A DNA stretch of 6,764 nt from B21-G16 sp003644825 [NCBI: Candidatus Zhuqueibacterota bacterium] (GTDB lineage Bacteria > SM23-31 > B21-G16): positions 1 through 6,764 of the forward strand of contig QNDJ01000091.1 of assembly GCA_003644825.1 (NCBI GenBank), written 5' to 3'. This document shows positions 117-6,764 of the stretch, piece by piece. The notes under the pieces are model-generated. The model had not been told where the DNA came from. It saw only the letters and a program-made list of their open reading frames with translations, and did no database searches. A program made the position numbers and the translations under genes. Positions within the stretch are counted from its first letter, which is position 1. Each line of letters opens with the position of its first letter.

Positions 117-413
117 TCATTTTTCAACTATTTTTTCTAATTTCCAAGAATATGCTTTTATTCCTTCAAATTTTACATTTCTATTAAATTCTTCTATTCT
201 GTCAATGAGTATATCAATCTTTTTTTCCTGAATCGGAAATATAATACCTGAATTATATCCCGGGAAGATATGGGTGCCAAATCTGGGTCTTCCTGTTTTT
301 CCACTGTTATGTATCTGAGGCCATTTGGAAAATGAAAAAATCTCCATATCTTTTAACAATTTCATAATTTCTTCATCTATACTTTCTTTATATGATAAAA
401 ATACCATATACAT
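117..413 (-). CDS. PG0541-family, PII-like transporter-associated small protein
   Basis: This 98-residue protein has no signal peptide or membrane segment and is predicted to stay in the cytosol. The sequence suggests a compact beta-alpha-beta-beta-alpha-beta (ferredoxin-like, PII-like) order: strand MYMVFLSY, helix IDEEIMKLLKDM, strand FSFSKWPQIH, the conserved-looking loop GRPRFGTHIFPGYNSG (41-56), strand GIIFPIQEK, helix KIDILIDRIEEFNRNV and strand GIKAYSWKLEKI. From memory, the SKWP...H...G.PRFGTHI.PG.NS signature and the position right after an RND permease match the family named after Porphyromonas gingivalis PG0541, often annotated as transporter-associated. Its function has not been established as far as I know. 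By analogy with PII proteins it might sense a ligand and act on the permease, but that is inference. It closes the pump operon; no terminator is visible after it. Confidence 0.85.
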   Translation of the reverse strand: MYMVFLSYKESIDEEIMKLLKDMEIFSFSKWPQIHNSGKTGRPRFGTHIFPGYNSGIIFPIQEKKIDILIDRIEEFNRNVKFEGIKAYSWKLEKIVEK

Positions 414-420
414 TGTTAAC

Positions 421-427
421 TCTCCTT
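421..427 (-). promoter_or_regulatory. Ribosome binding site of the PG0541-like gene
   Basis: The minus strand reads AAGGAGA with seven bases to the ATG at 413-411. It supports that start over the in-frame ATG six bases later. The site falls in the 17-base gap after the permease stop, consistent with translation from the pump mRNA. Confidence 0.8.
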
Positions 428-430
428 ATT

Positions 431-3400
431 TTAACTTTTTCTTTTTTCTTCCAGGACTGCATATAAAGTCGGAACGAAAATCAGAGTAACAATAGTAGAG
501 AAAAGCAATCCTCCTATAACAGAAATTGCCAGAGGAGACCATAACTCGGAACCCTCACCAGTGCTGAATACCAGAGGTAAAAGAGCAAAAATTGTGGTAA
601 AAGCCGTCATTAAAATCGGGCGAAGTCGCCTTGGTCCGGTAATCAGTATTGCATCTCTGCATTTTATTCCTCTTAACCTCAGGATATTTATATAATCTAC
701 AAGAACAATTGCATTATTTACCACAATTCCAACAAGCATTACCATACCAACATAGGACATAATGTTCAGAGTTTTTCCTGTGATAAAAAGTGCCCATATC
801 ACCCCGATAATTGCAAATGGTATTGAAAATAAAATTATAAAAGGACCTAAAAACGACTCAAATTGAGCAGCCATTATCATATAAACAAGAATTATACCTA
901 AAATTAAGGCTAAAAATAGATACGTGAATGCTTCCTGCTGGTCATCAGCGGTTCCCCCTATTTTTACGGATACACCTTCAGGAATGGGTGTTTTTGAAAG
1001 CTCTTTTCTGATATCAGATGTAACATCGCCTAATGCTCTTTTATATAAAGATGCACCTACTCTTACAATTCTTTCCTGGTTTTTTCTTTCCAGTGTAAGA
1101 GGACCTTCTCGTTCTACAATTCTTGCGAAGTTATTTAAAGGGATTTGTTTTCCCAGTGCAGAAGTAACAAAAACGTTGTTCAGGTCATTTAAGGTTTTCC
1201 TGTCTGCTTTTTTTAGCTGTATAAAAGTATCATATTCGTTCCCTGCTTCTCTGAACCTTGTAGCAACTTTTCCATAGAAATTTGTTCTTAATGTGCTGGA
1301 GATATTGTACATATTCAAACCCAGCGAAGAAGCTTTATCTCTATCTATTTCAATCCATAATTCCGGTCTTCCTTTCTCCCTGGAAATAGATATATCTTTC
1401 AAGCCTTTAATTTTTTCCATAATTTCTTTTACTTTTGCTGCAAAAGCGTCTGTTTTTACTATATCGTGTCCGTAGATTTCTATACTTATGGGTTTTTCAC
1501 CGCCAGACATTGATGAGAACATATCCTGTTGTGTAAAATCTATTTTTGCGACCCCGGGAATTTCAGAAATCTTTTTTCTGAGTTCCTCTGTAATTTCTGT
1601 TGAGGTTCTGTTTCTTTTATTTTTTTCAATAAGAGAAATACCAAACATTATTATGTTTATATCGTTTCTCTGTCCCATCATAGTACCCATTCCGGTTGTG
1701 CTTTCACCACATCTTGCATACATAATATCTCTTTCAGGAATATCTTTCTCCATAATATTTTCAATTCTGCTCATAACTTTATCTGTTTCTTCAATTCTTG
1801 TTCCTACCGGTAATTCTGCAGTTCCTGTTATCATACTTTCATCCATTGCTGGAGTAAACTCGGTATGAATAAATTTTAATAAGGATAAAGAAATAACAAA
1901 AAGTATCAGTCCTATTATTATTACTGCAAGTTTATGATTCAGGGCAAATTCTAATACTTTTCTATAGTTGTTTTCTAATTTACTGAACCAGTTTCTGGTA
2001 AAGTTTTGAAACTTCAATGATAACCATCTTCTGGACTTTTGTTCTTCAGGTTTTCTCATAAATTTTGATGAAAACATCGGTGTGAAGGTTAGAGCTGAAA
2101 ATAGTGAAGCCAGTAAAACTATTATTACCACATAAGCGAGCTCTCTGAACATGATTCCTGTAATACCTTTCACAAACATTATTGGTACAAATATCGCAAC
2201 GGTTGTAATCGTCGAAGCTGTTACTGCTAAACCCACTTCGCTTGACCCGAAAATTGAAGCCTCACTTTTTGATTCACCTTCTTCTGTGTAGTGCCTGTAT
2301 GTATTCTCGAAGATAACAATGGCTGCATCAATAACCATACCCAGTGCAATAGCAATCGCTGAAAGGGTCATTAAATTAATTGTATAACCACCAATAAATA
2401 AAAATATAAAAGCAATAATTAATGAGAATGGAATCGTAAGAGCCACAATTAAACTGTTTCTGAATTCGCCTATAAATAAAAATACAATTAGAATGACGAA
2501 AAGCAGTGCCCACCCTATGGTACTGACCAGATTGTTAATGGAACGCTTAATGAAATCGGAACTATCAAGGGCAAGATAAACTTCAACATCTACAGGAAGG
2601 TTTTTTTTGATTTCAGGCAATGCCTTTTTTATTCTCCTTGCAACGGTTACTGTATTTTCTCCAGATTGTTTTTGCACAATTACAATTAACCCGCTTCTTT
2701 TATTGATTCTTGTTCTGTGTTCAATATCTTTAAATGAATCTTCAACTGTAGCTATATCCTTGATATATACCGGAGAACCGTTATTCAACCCTACAAGAAC
2801 GTTATTAATCTCGTTGATGTCTTTGAATTCGCCTGGAACTCTGATAACATAATCTGTTTTGCCAACTTTAATGCCTCCTACTGTCTGGGTTATGTTTTCG
2901 GTGGCCAGAATTCCGGCTATCTGGTTTATCGAAAGATTATATGCTTCAAGGCGGTGTCTATCTATATTTACTTTAATTTCTCTCTGAAGCCCACCCATTA
3001 TCATTGTCATAGCTACGCCCTGTAATTTTCTTAGGTCGTTGCAGAACTTCTCATCGATTAAATCATATAGTTCTGGATAACTCTCTTCGGCAGTAATACC
3101 AAATACAATTACAGGCATCATTGAAGGGTCGAATTTCATTATCATAGGTCTTTCAGCATCTTCAGGTAAAAATCTTGTTGAAAAATCAACCATCTGTCTT
3201 ACATCATTTGCTGCTTCATCTAAATCCTTACCCCATTCAAACTGCAGTGTTATTGTGGATAAATTTTCCTGTGAAGTAGATAAAATATCTTTCAGACCTG
3301 TAATTGTGCTTAATCTTTCTTCCAGAATTTTTGTAACTCTTGTTTCTACATCTTCAGTTGATGCTCCATTGTATCTTGTTATTACACTTAATGTAGGGAA

Positions 3401-3523
3401 TTCAAGATTGGGCATTAAATCTATCGGGAGCTGGATATAAGAAACAATTCCAAGAATAAGTATCCCAACAAAAACCATAAATGTGAAAACAGGCCGTTTA
3501 ACTCCTAATTCGGGCAGTTTCAT
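431..3523 (-). CDS. RND-family inner-membrane efflux permease
   Basis: This 1030-residue protein (AcrB/ACR_tran family, full length) is the proton-driven trimeric pump of the complex. The layout is typical: TM1 at about 10-30, a large periplasmic loop (31-334), TM2-TM6 (about 335-486), TM7 (about 531-550), a second periplasmic loop (551-865) and TM8-TM12 (about 866-1024). Recognisable signatures are the N-terminal KRPVFTFMVFVGILILG, YNGASTEDVE (51-60), GGLQREIKV (177-185), TM4 GMVIDAAIVIFEN (395-407), TM10 GIVVNNAIVLVDY (932-944) and TM11 RRLRPILMT (965-973). In TM4 the position of AcrB Asp407 is D399, but Asp408 is A400. The TM10 position of AcrB Lys940 is Asn. The sequence resembles drug-type RND permeases of many phyla more than the heavy-metal CzcA type, though the single-Asp TM4 recalls CusA. 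Substrate is unknown. It overlaps the adaptor by 4 bases and is followed after 17 bases by the small accessory gene. Confidence 0.97.
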   Translation of the reverse strand: MKLPELGVKRPVFTFMVFVGILILGIVSYIQLPIDLMPNLEFPTLSVITRYNGASTEDVETRVTKILEERLSTITGLKDILSTSQENLSTITLQFEWGKDLDEAANDVRQMVDFSTRFLPEDAERPMIMKFDPSMMPVIVFGITAEESYPELYDLIDEKFCNDLRKLQGVAMTMIMGGLQREIKVNIDRHRLEAYNLSINQIAGILATENITQTVGGIKVGKTDYVIRVPGEFKDINEINNVLVGLNNGSPVYIKDIATVEDSFKDIEHRTRINKRSGLIVIVQKQSGENTVTVARRIKKALPEIKKNLPVDVEVYLALDSSDFIKRSINNLVSTIGWALLFVILIVFLFIGEFRNSLIVALTIPFSLIIAFIFLFIGGYTINLMTLSAIAIALGMVIDAAIVIFENTYRHYTEEGESKSEASIFGSSEVGLAVTASTITTVAIFVPIMFVKGITGIMFRELAYVVIIVLLASLFSALTFTPMFSSKFMRKPEEQKSRRWLSLKFQNFTRNWFSKLENNYRKVLEFALNHKLAVIIIGLILFVISLSLLKFIHTEFTPAMDESMITGTAELPVGTRIEETDKVMSRIENIMEKDIPERDIMYARCGESTTGMGTMMGQRNDINIIMFGISLIEKNKRNRTSTEITEELRKKISEIPGVAKIDFTQQDMFSSMSGGEKPISIEIYGHDIVKTDAFAAKVKEIMEKIKGLKDISISREKGRPELWIEIDRDKASSLGLNMYNISSTLRTNFYGKVATRFREAGNEYDTFIQLKKADRKTLNDLNNVFVTSALGKQIPLNNFARIVEREGPLTLERKNQERIVRVGASLYKRALGDVTSDIRKELSKTPIPEGVSVKIGGTADDQQEAFTYLFLALILGIILVYMIMAAQFESFLGPFIILFSIPFAIIGVIWALFITGKTLNIMSYVGMVMLVGIVVNNAIVLVDYINILRLRGIKCRDAILITGPRRLRPILMTAFTTIFALLPLVFSTGEGSELWSPLAISVIGGLLFSTIVTLIFVPTLYAVLEEKRKS

Positions 3524-4623
3524 TTTTCATCACCTCCTTCGACTTTAACAACAGTTCCATCTTTTAGCATTTCCTTCCCAGTAATAACGACCTGTTCATT
3601 TTCTTTTAGTCCGTCAAGAACTTCAACAATACCATTGACTTCAAGACCTGTTTTAATGACCCTTTTTTCGGCAATATTGTTATTAATTACAAAAACGTGT
3701 ACATTATTCATAGATTTTATAGTGCAATCAACAGGTATGGTAATCACATTTTTGTGTTTTTTTACAATTATGTTAATCCTTGCAAACATTCCAGCCCTTA
3801 GCATCATATCTTCGTTTGGAACCTGAATTTCTATCATAAAAGTTCTTGAAAGAGGGTCAGCTGTTGGGTTTACTTTTGATATTTTCCCGAAAAATTCTTT
3901 ATCAGGATAAGAATCAACCCTGATTTTAGCATCAAGTCCAACCTTAATATCGGTGAAATCTTTCTCGGAAATGCTTGCAGTAATTTTTACCTTTGATAAA
4001 TCCATAACAGTTACAACACCTCTTCCACCTGGCATCATCGGATTAACCACTTCCTGTTCGTTGATGTATTTACCGGTAATGATTCCGTCAAATGGCGCCT
4101 TCATTTTTGAAACTTCGAGCTGGTATTTTGCAAGGTTAAGAGCAGCTTTTGCCTGCTTTAGTTGAGCTTCAGCAGCTTCATATCCTAACCTTGCTTTTTC
4201 ATATTGTTGTGGTGATACTGTTCCCTTTTTAAACAGGCTTTTTATCCTTTCCCAGTTTTTTGATGCATCGTCAAAATTTGACTGGGCTACCGCTAAACCT
4301 GCTTCTGCCTGCTGAAGACGTAGCTTTATTGACCGTGTATCAAGTTCTGCAAGTATCTGCCCTTTTTTAACAAAATCACCTTCTTCAACATATATCTTTT
4401 TTATTTTGCCTGATATATCAGGAACAACATTAACCATCTGTATCGGCTGGATGTTCCCTGTGAGCTTTAGCATTTTAGTTATATCATTCCGCTTAACATT
4501 GAAAACTACAACAGGAATGACATTCGAAGAAGTCGAATTTTCTTTGTTTTTATCCTGGGAACAACCAATTGTATAAATTATAAACAATAAAATTAATATT
4601 TTCACTGTCATCTTTTTTAACAT
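3520..4623 (-). CDS. RND efflux periplasmic adaptor (membrane fusion) lipoprotein
   Basis: This 367-residue adaptor bridges the inner-membrane permease and the TolC-type channel in the periplasm. The start at 4623 gives a lipoprotein signal peptide (MLKKMTVKILILLFIIYTIG) with the probable lipidated cysteine at position 21. Domains in order: first half of the lipoyl domain (about 64-97, with PDISGKI and EEGDFVKKGQILAELD), alpha-helical hairpin (about 98-172), second lipoyl half (about 174-193, KAPFDGIITGK), beta-barrel domain (about 210-290) and membrane-proximal domain (about 291-360). The hairpin carries an R-x3-L-x6-S pattern (R126, L130, S137), the known RLS tip motif that contacts TolC proteins. 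A Met/Gly/Pro loop (NPMMPGGRG, 194-202) sits after the lipoyl domain. The last codons contain the permease ribosome binding site, and the TGA stop overlaps the permease ATG, so the two are very probably translationally coupled. Confidence 0.95.
   Translation of the reverse strand: MLKKMTVKILILLFIIYTIGCSQDKNKENSTSSNVIPVVVFNVKRNDITKMLKLTGNIQPIQMVNVVPDISGKIKKIYVEEGDFVKKGQILAELDTRSIKLRLQQAEAGLAVAQSNFDDASKNWERIKSLFKKGTVSPQQYEKARLGYEAAEAQLKQAKAALNLAKYQLEVSKMKAPFDGIITGKYINEQEVVNPMMPGGRGVVTVMDLSKVKITASISEKDFTDIKVGLDAKIRVDSYPDKEFFGKISKVNPTADPLSRTFMIEIQVPNEDMMLRAGMFARINIIVKKHKNVITIPVDCTIKSMNNVHVFVINNNIAEKRVIKTGLEVNGIVEVLDGLKENEQVVITGKEMLKDGTVVKVEGGDEK
3529..3539 (-). promoter_or_regulatory. Perfect Shine-Dalgarno site of the permease, inside the adaptor gene
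   Basis: The minus strand reads AAGGAGGTGAT, complementary over 11 bases to the usual 16S rRNA 3' end. Nine bases separate GGAGG from the ATG at 3523-3521. The site also encodes the adaptor's C-terminal residues (VEGGDE region). The adaptor stop and permease start share the ATGA overlap, a standard arrangement for coupled translation of pump subunits. Confidence 0.9.
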
Positions 4624-4632
4624 TTTGACATC

Positions 4633-4638
4633 CCTCTC
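4633..4638 (-). promoter_or_regulatory. Ribosome binding site deciding the adaptor start
   Basis: The minus strand reads GAGAGG (inside AAGAGAGGGA), with nine bases between it and the ATG at 4623-4621. It lies upstream of the codon that begins a clean lipoprotein signal peptide. The longer in-frame ATG at 4680 has no comparable site and would place 19 mostly charged or polar residues before the signal peptide. Confidence 0.75.
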
Positions 4639-4698
4639 TTTCTGTATTTTATCATAAATAGAGTTATGGTTAAAGTACATACATTGGTAATTTAAATT

Positions 4699-6081
4699 TT
4701 AGAACTTAACTTCTCCTGTCGATTTTTTTAAAGCAGCGAGAGCTACCTTATAATCAGCGAGGGCTGAAATATAATTAGTTCTTGCCTGAACTAGTAATGT
4801 ATTAGCATCCAGTAAGTTCGTATTTGTTGCCAGTCCCTCTTTAAACTTTTCATTGGTAACTCTATAATTTTCTTCAGCCTGTTTTACATTCAGCCTGCAC
4901 TTATCAATTTTTTCTTTTGCTTCTAACAGGGATAGATAACTCTGTGTTACTTCGAGGGTTATTCCATCTTCTAACTGTTTTTTAGTAATTTCTATCTGCT
5001 TCAATTGTTTTTTTGCCCTGGATACCTTCAAACTTGTTTCTCCCCAGTCAAACAGATTGAACTGGAATACCATAGAGACGGTCCATGTTCCATAAAAATC
5101 TCTGTTGTAGAACCTATCAGGCCGTCTGTAACCGTAGTCTGCGTTTAAAAATATGTTTGGAAAATACCCTGCTTTGCTTATATTAACAGCTTTCCTGCCT
5201 ATTTCTATATTAGCCTCAAAGGAATTAATTTCTGGCCTTTTACTGAAGGCAGTTTTTATCATTTTTTCGAGGTTAATTTCAGGCACAGGTTCTGCTTTGA
5301 GTTTATCAATAAATATTACATCCGTATCCAGGGGAATTCCCAGAACATTACAGAAAGCTATCTTTGCTAATTTAATGCCATTTTTTGCCTGTATTAATGC
5401 CAGTTCTGCATTGGAGAGCTGAACCTTTGTCATAAGAAGGTCATTCTCGGTTACCATTCCTACCTGATACATATTTTCTAAATCTTTCAGGTGTGAATTC
5501 ACCTGCTTAATTGCCTCTTCAGCAACTTTTTTAAACTCCTGGGCTTTAACAACGCTCCAGTATGCTTTTTCAACATCGTAAACCAGCTCGTTTTTTGATT
5601 TTTCGAAATTAACCTCTGCATTGTATGCTTTGAGCTCAGAGATTCTATAAGAGTTTCTCAAAGCACCTCCAGTATAAATCGGCTGCTGAACAGTAAATGC
5701 AGCCGCATAATTGTTTTCATCCCCTATTGTGATTTTTTTTGGCATTTCCTGTCCTGGTGGCAGTTGTCCACCTCCACCAAACTTCATAAAAGCTTTTGCA
5801 GGAAAAAATGGAGCATAATCCAGCCTTGTATAATTGAATACTGTTGAAATTTTTGGTAAAAAAGCTGTTCTGCTTATTCCAACACCATCATACTCTTCTT
5901 CGATTTTTGATTTTGCAAGCAGTAATTTTTTGCTCTTTTTCAATGCAATCTCTACACTTTCTTTCACAGTAAGGTTTAATGTTCCCGAACTAATTTTTTC
6001 CTGACCTATGACATTTTGAAAAGTAAAAAACAACAGTATTACTGATAAAATTATTAGATTATTTTTTAATTTAAAAATCAT
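4699..6081 (-). CDS. TolC-family outer-membrane efflux channel
   Basis: This 460-residue protein is the outer-membrane exit duct of the tripartite pump; the family forms trimers with a beta-barrel in the outer membrane and a long alpha-helical tunnel in the periplasm. An N-terminal signal peptide covers about residues 1-26 (KLKNN, a hydrophobic core, then NVIGQ). Two homologous halves (outer membrane efflux protein repeats) follow. Each has a barrel-strand motif, QPIYTGG at 133-139 and FNLFDWGE at 341-348. Each also has a helical-tip motif, YQVGMVTENDLL at 205-216 and FKEGLATNTNLLDA at 413-426. Long Ala/Lys/Glu-rich helices lie between. A Gly/Pro-rich stretch (about 100-115, FGGGGQLPPGQEMP) precedes the first barrel strand pair and is probably a surface loop. 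Length is typical. The start is supported by AAGGAGG five bases upstream. The adaptor gene begins 75 bases downstream. The family is clear; substrate and precise orthology are not. Confidence 0.95.
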   Translation of the reverse strand: MIFKLKNNLIILSVILLFFTFQNVIGQEKISSGTLNLTVKESVEIALKKSKKLLLAKSKIEEEYDGVGISRTAFLPKISTVFNYTRLDYAPFFPAKAFMKFGGGGQLPPGQEMPKKITIGDENNYAAAFTVQQPIYTGGALRNSYRISELKAYNAEVNFEKSKNELVYDVEKAYWSVVKAQEFKKVAEEAIKQVNSHLKDLENMYQVGMVTENDLLMTKVQLSNAELALIQAKNGIKLAKIAFCNVLGIPLDTDVIFIDKLKAEPVPEINLEKMIKTAFSKRPEINSFEANIEIGRKAVNISKAGYFPNIFLNADYGYRRPDRFYNRDFYGTWTVSMVFQFNLFDWGETSLKVSRAKKQLKQIEITKKQLEDGITLEVTQSYLSLLEAKEKIDKCRLNVKQAEENYRVTNEKFKEGLATNTNLLDANTLLVQARTNYISALADYKVALAALKKSTGEVKF

Positions 6082-6149: not shown

Positions 6150-6764
6150 TTAAAAATAATATAAAATTCCTGCCCTTATATCCAGTATACCCTGTTCTGA
6201 AAAATAATCGCCAAAAAAGAATCTATCTTTCGATAATATATAATGGTATCTTGTAGTTATGGAAAAATTCAAAATTTCATTAATTTCGAGCTCAACTCCA
6301 GCCCCTATATTACCACCAATACTCATTTTTCTAAATTTTTCTTCTTCAAATATCTGTATATTGCCGAATGGGCCGTCTTTGGTAAATCTCCAGTAGTAGA
6401 TTCCCGGTCCAAATAAGATTTTTAGTTTGAACCTTCTGTTAATGAAATAATAATTGTTTTCAAAGTTCAGACCTGTTACTGCAAAGGATGGATTTTTTCC
6501 TGGTTCCGATTTCCACTCATCTCTATAATTCATCCAGCAATTAGAAATATAAAAATCAACAGAATAGTTTTTATTTACCTTCATTCTTATACCTACATTA
6601 ATAGAAGTACCGGGTTTGACAAGCCCTTTCAGATTAAAATTTTTCGAATAGGTTCCTTTAATAGATTTAACAGTTCCTCCATCAATCAGGATACCATATT
6701 GTCTGGCTTTTTCCTGGGAAAAAATCTGGTTATTGAAAATCAGTATAAACAAACTTAATAGAAC
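6150..6764 (-). CDS. Outer-membrane beta-barrel protein, 5' end cut by window edge
   Basis: The reading frame is open through the right edge, so the true start lies outside; 204 residues and the stop codon are visible. A TTG at 6752 is an unlikely start, because the hydrophobic run continues upstream of it (first visible residues VLLSLFILIFNNQIFS). That run looks like the end of a signal peptide, cleaved near IFS-QEK. The mature part alternates polar and hydrophobic or aromatic residues in segments that look like amphipathic strands, for example INVGIRMKV, YSVDFYISNCWMNY, FKLKILFGPGIYYWRF, GGNIGAGVELEI and LNFSITTRYHYIL. It ends in ILYYF, and a C-terminal phenylalanine in the last strand is the usual signal for barrel insertion by the BAM complex. 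Size fits a small barrel of about eight strands. The family and ligand are not recognisable. It ends 68 bases before the TolC-type gene on the same strand, so co-transcription with the pump is possible but unproven. Confidence 0.8.
   Translation of the reverse strand, partial: VLLSLFILIFNNQIFSQEKARQYGILIDGGTVKSIKGTYSKNFNLKGLVKPGTSINVGIRMKVNKNYSVDFYISNCWMNYRDEWKSEPGKNPSFAVTGLNFENNYYFINRRFKLKILFGPGIYYWRFTKDGPFGNIQIFEEEKFRKMSIGGNIGAGVELEINEILNFSITTRYHYILSKDRFFFGDYFSEQGILDIRAGILYYF

Follow-up and report, generated by a model that had tools for sequence, protein, structure and literature searches.

Sequence profiles and a predicted fold place the PG0541 family, encoded behind RND permeases, in the PII superfamily

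What does a small soluble protein do at the end of an operon that encodes a tripartite RND efflux pump? We addressed this question at a locus on a contig of genome G000; the whole contig, 6764 bases long, is referred to here as the window. The original prediction held that the last gene of the pump cluster, 17 bases past the permease stop codon and with a good ribosome binding site, encodes a 98-residue PII-like protein with a strongly patterned central loop. The ORF is real, with an ATG start and its own stop codon. It belongs to the same operon as the permease gene, from which it is separated by the 17 bases at 414-430, its product is soluble, and the AAGGAG ahead of it confirms the ribosome binding site. 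Residues 41-56 read in the translation exactly as quoted (Table 1). Against NCBIfam, the permease scored 808.5 bits with the multidrug-type model NF033617 (cut-off 1250) and 495.2 bits with the CusA/CzcA model TIGR00914 (cut-off 701.45), and was thus under both cut-offs. Just upstream of the pump operon, a minus-strand ORF that is open at the contig end (window 6150-6764) shows a weak likeness to outer-membrane beta-barrel proteins (PF13505, below cut-off).

Table 1. Coordinates of the operon features in the window
Feature	Position	Strand	Basis
PG0541-family, PII-like protein, 98 aa	117..413	-	ORF; NF045581, 79.9 bits (E 1e-22, residues 3-91; cut-off 45); predicted PII fold
Predicted T-loop, residues 33-54, joins strands 2 and 3	252..317	-	DSSP, pLDDT and column conservation; low model confidence, highest conservation
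Patterned loop, residues 41-56, GRPRFGTHIFPGYNSG	246..293	-	Family motif approximately (R/H)xG(T/S)xxWPGxN
Shine-Dalgarno sequence AAGGAG	422..427	-	Sequence; ends 8 nt ahead of the ATG
RND permease, 1030 aa, nearer the multidrug type than CusA/CzcA	431..3523	-	ACR_tran, 870.6 bits
Permease Arg951 codon, presumably in the cytosolic TM10-11 loop	671..673	-	Column comparison of linked and unlinked permeases; lead only
Periplasmic adaptor (membrane fusion protein)	3520..4680	-	RND_mfp TIGR01730, 283.1 bits (cut-off 94.9)
TolC-type outer membrane channel	4699..6081	-	OEP PF02321, 233.8 bits

The small protein turned out to have a name. It is a member of NF045581, the 'PG0541 family transporter-associated protein' of NCBIfam, from which it does not differ in kind; the operon order TolC-adaptor-permease-PG0541 is also alike. 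This family is named yet uncharacterised, and its NCBI name carries no link to PII, but it is already called transporter-associated. Judged by the NF045581 score and by recurrence across genomes, the ORF is more than a chance reading frame, and membership in a conserved family rules out a false ORF. At E <= 0.001, the family was detected in 51 of 386 genomes, with 43 of these over the cut-off, the window's genome included, and in 0 of the 14 control genomes. Two of the six genomes of the window's small phylum, most of them incomplete, carry it; the same-class genome G005 has a member. A search of genome contigs for related loci returned one locus, encoding the same protein as in G005, in the record of the MAG 'bacterium SM23_31'; the corresponding search of viral contigs gave none that was confirmed, and a plasmid search with an RND-linked relative as query gave no match. 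One record with a member, L039 (NZ_OY725754.1, Parabacteroides distasonis 'plasmid 9'), is labelled a plasmid and has housekeeping genes, among them those for ribosomal protein L25 and aminoacyl-tRNA hydrolase; it may be a piece of a chromosome.

Annotated records of Bacteroides finegoldii and P. distasonis contain the order TetR regulator, TolC, adaptor, permease and PG0541 gene, so annotators had already been able to see this arrangement. PMC1887533 and PMC4493947 both tabulate PG0541 as a hypothetical protein, and the latter places the Porphyromonas gingivalis gene among those up about 2.1-fold post inoculation in the rat mouth. Among the matches listed in our literature search, with most subscription papers outside its scope, no title or opening of an abstract reports on this family or on a drug-type RND pump with a protein of the PII type.

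We then asked how steadily the gene keeps company with a pump, and fetched all 42 other over-cut-off loci with their flanks. In 38 of the 42, the PG0541 gene is preceded on its own strand by an RND permease gene whose last aligned residue is no more than about 400 nt away. This frequency rules out a chance neighbour and bears out the predicted coupling to an RND pump; homologues are not found mostly away from RND genes. At locus L056 the order is inverted, the PG0541 gene standing ahead of a permease gene directly downstream, and the locus L061 is cut by the contig end. The gene at L041:5986-6267 (genome G155) lies behind a regulator-like ORF and about 33 codons that match the RND C-terminus; here the pump seems to have been lost. 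A further arrangement is seen at L072:5995-6288, where the PG0541 gene is placed between two same-strand RND permease genes and overlaps the first by 4 nt. Among the 35 linked loci that have a complete permease ORF, 13 show a 4-nt overlap between the permease stop and the first in-frame start, which suggests translational coupling.

The locus L075:5977-6288 (genome G036) has no RND gene within the fetched stretch; oxidoreductase-like ORFs and a radical-SAM-like ORF, all named by eye, flank the PG0541 gene, and a change of partner is possible. Such a locus would suit a protein that signals elsewhere, for example to a transcription factor or an enzyme, and whose place in the pump operon serves only to match its level to pump expression. 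Several targets are possible for a single PII protein, according to the accessible part of PMC10710835. We consider this reading very unlikely, given that 38 of 42 members lie behind a permease and that distances among the small proteins correlate with those among their permeases (r 0.74, 39 pairs, a value obtained without a control gene).

Nine matches fell below the family cut-off. Three of them (L082-L084) are encoded behind a permease, and the other six have no RND gene nearby; L086, L088 and L090, among these six, are clear P-II proteins by Pfam. The proteins of L087:5953-6249 and L089:1905-2192 are related and share a WPE motif; neither fetched stretch showed an RND gene. The window's own genome (2.48 Mb) has one PG0541 gene and 17 ACR_tran matches, several of which are fragments on short contigs. 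P-II and AmtB were also sought in this genome, which is 83.6% complete, with no match for either, and a GlnK protein serving AmtB was dropped as an identity for the small protein on that account.

The PII likeness asserted by the original prediction was examined with sequence profiles and a structural model. For the former we used an alignment, A3, of 40 rows: the window protein, members from 37 of the 51 fetched loci and 2 members from plasmid records. The 14 loci excluded were near copies, truncated, uncertain in their start or weak matches, and the alignment includes L041, L056, L061 and L075, none of which lies behind an intact permease. Pfam P-II was matched by 25 of the 40 members at E <= 0.01, and among members scanned singly, two RND-linked ones, L040 (25.2 bits) and L080 (25.7 bits), were over the Pfam cut-off of 25. 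Searched against PDB chains, the A3 profile found the P-II protein 9p1x at 1.9e-6, with further PII proteins only at 0.02 and worse, and hhalign aligned the family with five P-II proteins at a probability of 93.4 and a pairwise E of 2.4e-7. By itself, the window protein had no P-II match in Pfam, only a chance match to the FF domain, and phmmer with this single sequence found nothing credible in the PDB, where the profile was needed.

An AlphaFold2 monomer model (two sequences) reached a pLDDT of 79.0 and a pTM of 0.71. Its secondary-structure order is beta-alpha-beta-beta-alpha-beta; the loop that links strands 2 and 3 corresponds to the T-loop and is modelled with the lowest confidence (block means 60 and 52). 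All 29 Foldseek rows at E <= 0.001 were titled PII, GlnK, SbtB, CPII or PotN, with TM-scores on the query of 0.53-0.68 and rmsd values of 3.0-8.4 A. With VIA-align, the best row was CPII (Z 10.2, 3.5 A, 83 residues), and AmtB-bound GlnK (2ns1_B) scored Z 8.8. The non-PII, ACT-domain-like regulator 1u8s also reached Z 8.8 (2.4 A, 78 residues), so the fold alone is unspecific and the sequence profiles are the stronger proof of PII. Taken at the level of the family, the profile matches and the predicted fold identify PG0541 as a branch of the PII superfamily. The predicted strand-helix order and PII fold thus found support from the model, both structure comparisons and the Pfam, PDB and hhalign profile matches, and no unrelated fold emerged.

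Conservation within the family centres on the loop that had attracted attention as a pattern. Mean relative entropy in A3 is 2.49 bits at residues 41-56 versus 1.50 bits outside 33-56, in line with the expected conservation of this loop. Pro51 is invariant (40/40); at position 50, 29 of the 40 members have Trp and 2, the window protein among them, have Phe; Gly52 occurs in 33/40, Asn54 in 29/40, and Arg or His at position 44 in 34/40. Read from these columns, the best conserved part of the family is the putative T-loop, around (R/H)xG(T/S)xxWPGxN. In the PDB profile alignment, WPG falls about where the PII T-loop has YRG, the loop alignment being uncertain at that level of similarity. His35 and His48, which had been put forward as candidate ligand residues, did not fare as well: His is found at these positions in just 6/40 and 18/40 members.

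Canonical GlnB and GlnK proteins have a nucleotide-binding B-loop of the pattern [ST]xxxG[DY]G[KR][IV][FW][LIVM], a uridylylation site of the pattern Y[KR]G[AS][AE]Y and an RIRTG-like C-loop. The B-loop pattern was found in 0 of 40 PG0541 members, the uridylylation-site pattern in 0 of 40 and an RIxTG-like C-loop in 0 of 39. A GDG occurs in 1 of 39 members (L059) and is located in the T-loop, and the aligned PG0541 chains stop short of the PII C-loop. From the sequences, the canonical nucleotide-binding loops of PII are lost in the PG0541 family, and the protein probably does not bind ATP and 2-oxoglutarate in the classical mode.

PII proteins are typically sensors. A protein without the classical ligand loops (B-loop 0/40, RIxTG-like C-loop 0/39) might instead sense no ligand at all and help the permease to assemble or keep it stable, with a role like that of AcrZ or WatS1 and a form unlike theirs. 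The 4-nt overlaps at 13 of 35 loci, which suggest a fixed stoichiometry, would agree with such a role, and small binders of RND pumps (AcrZ, YajC and WatS1) are known, as described in the accessible part of PMC10710835; the PG0541 protein likewise seems to be a small partner of an RND permease. According to the same part of that source, AcrZ consists of one helix that wraps like a belt about the transmembrane domain, with no alpha-beta fold, whereas our model shows a soluble alpha-beta domain and no single transmembrane helix. With this difference and the usual sensor role of PII proteins weighing against it, we regard an assembly factor as possible, if rather unlikely.

To see which pumps the family accompanies, we built a tree from 69 permeases. 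A well supported group of 26 rows (SH-aLRT 100) from many lineages includes the permease of the window, and all of its members are linked to a PG0541 partner. Across the tree, the partner link requires 8 changes, versus 22.0 in shuffles. The linked permeases do not form one group; the pairing is clustered, with a few gains or losses. Six permeases whose downstream sequence was short or missing are labelled uncertain in this tree, which used our first labels, and were excluded from the column comparison described below. Eight linked permeases, the window's included, were scanned against NCBIfam: each had its top score with NF033617, below the cut-off, and 0/8 were over the CusA/CzcA cut-off.

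We also compared permease columns between linked and unlinked rows. With the first labels, position 951 is Arg in 36/41 linked versus 4/22 unlinked permeases, tied at the top by frequency difference with Ala54, which lies outside the cytosolic loops. These labels gave only 5 independent pairs, too few for significance (sign test, median p 0.5). Two permeases with a PG0541 gene directly ahead (that of L056 and the second in L072) were relabelled as linked, after which Arg was found in 38/43 linked versus 2/20 unlinked permeases, and the column ranked 7th of 1007 when relatedness was allowed for. Arg951, which was picked after inspection of the columns and which we take from hydropathy and general RND topology to lie in the cytosolic loop joining TM10 and TM11, should be read as a lead and not as a result.

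PII-superfamily genes beside RND pumps have a precedent. In Geobacter, the gene for PII-NG is the first of the czcABC operon, with a suggested role in metal (cobalt) sensing, and PII-NG proteins are mostly clustered with czcABC-type pumps (Sant'Anna 2009, as cited in PMC7726332; both points are from the accessible part of PMC7726332). The claim that PII-like control would be new beside RND pumps was consequently too wide, all the more as the family is already termed transporter-associated; what stands is that the PII nature of PG0541 and its steady pump linkage were not found described in the literature searched. We observed two comparable genes ourselves, L177:3208-3546 and L180:5959-6291, which encode P-II proteins with an intact TGxxGDG directly behind CusA/CzcA-type permeases (1076.3 and 1162 bits, respectively, with TIGR00914; cut-off 701.45). 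They are probably PII-NG-like, although they lie behind rather than ahead of the permease.

These parallels raise the question of whether the PG0541 protein could sense or carry a metal, in the manner of CutA or of the role suggested for PII-NG, and tune a metal-exporting RND pump. The published association of PII-NG with CzcABC and cobalt (PMC7726332, in the part available) and the position of the L177 and L180 genes, P-II genes with canonical loops, directly after CusA/CzcA permeases would be in keeping with such a role. We find it unlikely, as the window permease (495.2 versus 701.45 bits) and the seven other linked permeases scanned fall below the CusA/CzcA cut-off, and as His35 (6/40) and His48 (18/40) are poorly conserved. 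PG0541 and PII-NG are alike in being PII-superfamily genes coupled to RND pump operons; PII-NG goes with CzcABC metal pumps, whereas PG0541 follows multidrug-type permeases and has another T-loop, and the PII-NG-like proteins of L177 and L180 keep the TGxxGDG loops, whereas PG0541 members are without nucleotide loops.

DUF3240 (PF11582; structure 3ce8) is another relative in fold, PII-like as PG0541 is (VIA-align Z 9.3, 4.0 A, 85 residues). Its Pfam model was matched by 1 of 40 PG0541 members (E 0.0054) and not by the window protein at E <= 1. No usable comparison set for DUF3240 was obtained: a search of the 386 genomes gave 3 matches, two of them, judged by eye, ordinary P-II proteins and one, L180, the P-II-like protein behind a CusA/CzcA permease. 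Likeness in fold extends to the transporter-bound proteins GlnK and SbtB (2ns1_B at Z 8.8; Foldseek rows for SbtB 7r31_B and the SbtA-SbtB entry 7egk_B), from which PG0541 differs in target class, ATP loops and T-loop sequence. The accessible part of PMC10710835 names ammonium, nitrate, urea and bicarbonate transporters as PII targets, with no RND pump among them. Compared with the systems in print, PG0541 stands out as a PII branch of its own that accompanies multidrug-type permeases, has a different T-loop and lacks the ATP loops.

Taking these results together, we suggest that the PG0541 protein belongs to the PII superfamily and is produced as a subunit alongside one multidrug-type RND permease. 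RND permeases are trimers, and the protein most probably forms a PII-type trimer itself, with the conserved T-loop as its means of docking on the permease from the cytosolic side. Once docked, it would raise or lower the activity of the pump, in the way that GlnK acts on AmtB and SbtB on SbtA, in response to a signal that is presumably other than classical ATP and 2-oxoglutarate. In both of these known pairs, a trimer sits on a trimer, and the transporter targets of PII appear limited to ones able to work as trimers (PMC10710835, in the part available). We assign a probability of roughly 0.55 to this reading as a whole, in which a PII-type trimer uses its T-loop to dock on the linked RND permease and modulates pump activity. 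A bolder form can be put forward only tentatively: that PG0541 is a dedicated PII gatekeeper of multidrug-type RND pumps in several lineages, parallel to PII-NG, which gave up ATP/2-oxoglutarate sensing and docks three-to-three on the cytosolic face by its WPG-tipped T-loop, at a site that includes the basic TM10-11 loop (Arg951).

The PG0541 family, uncharacterised so far, gains from this analysis a fold and a hypothesis. If the proposal is true, the rule that a PII trimer docks on a trimeric transporter extends to another transporter superfamily. The control of RND pumps after their assembly is poorly understood, and a conserved PII-type partner would give a testable handle on the fast gating of drug-type efflux pumps.
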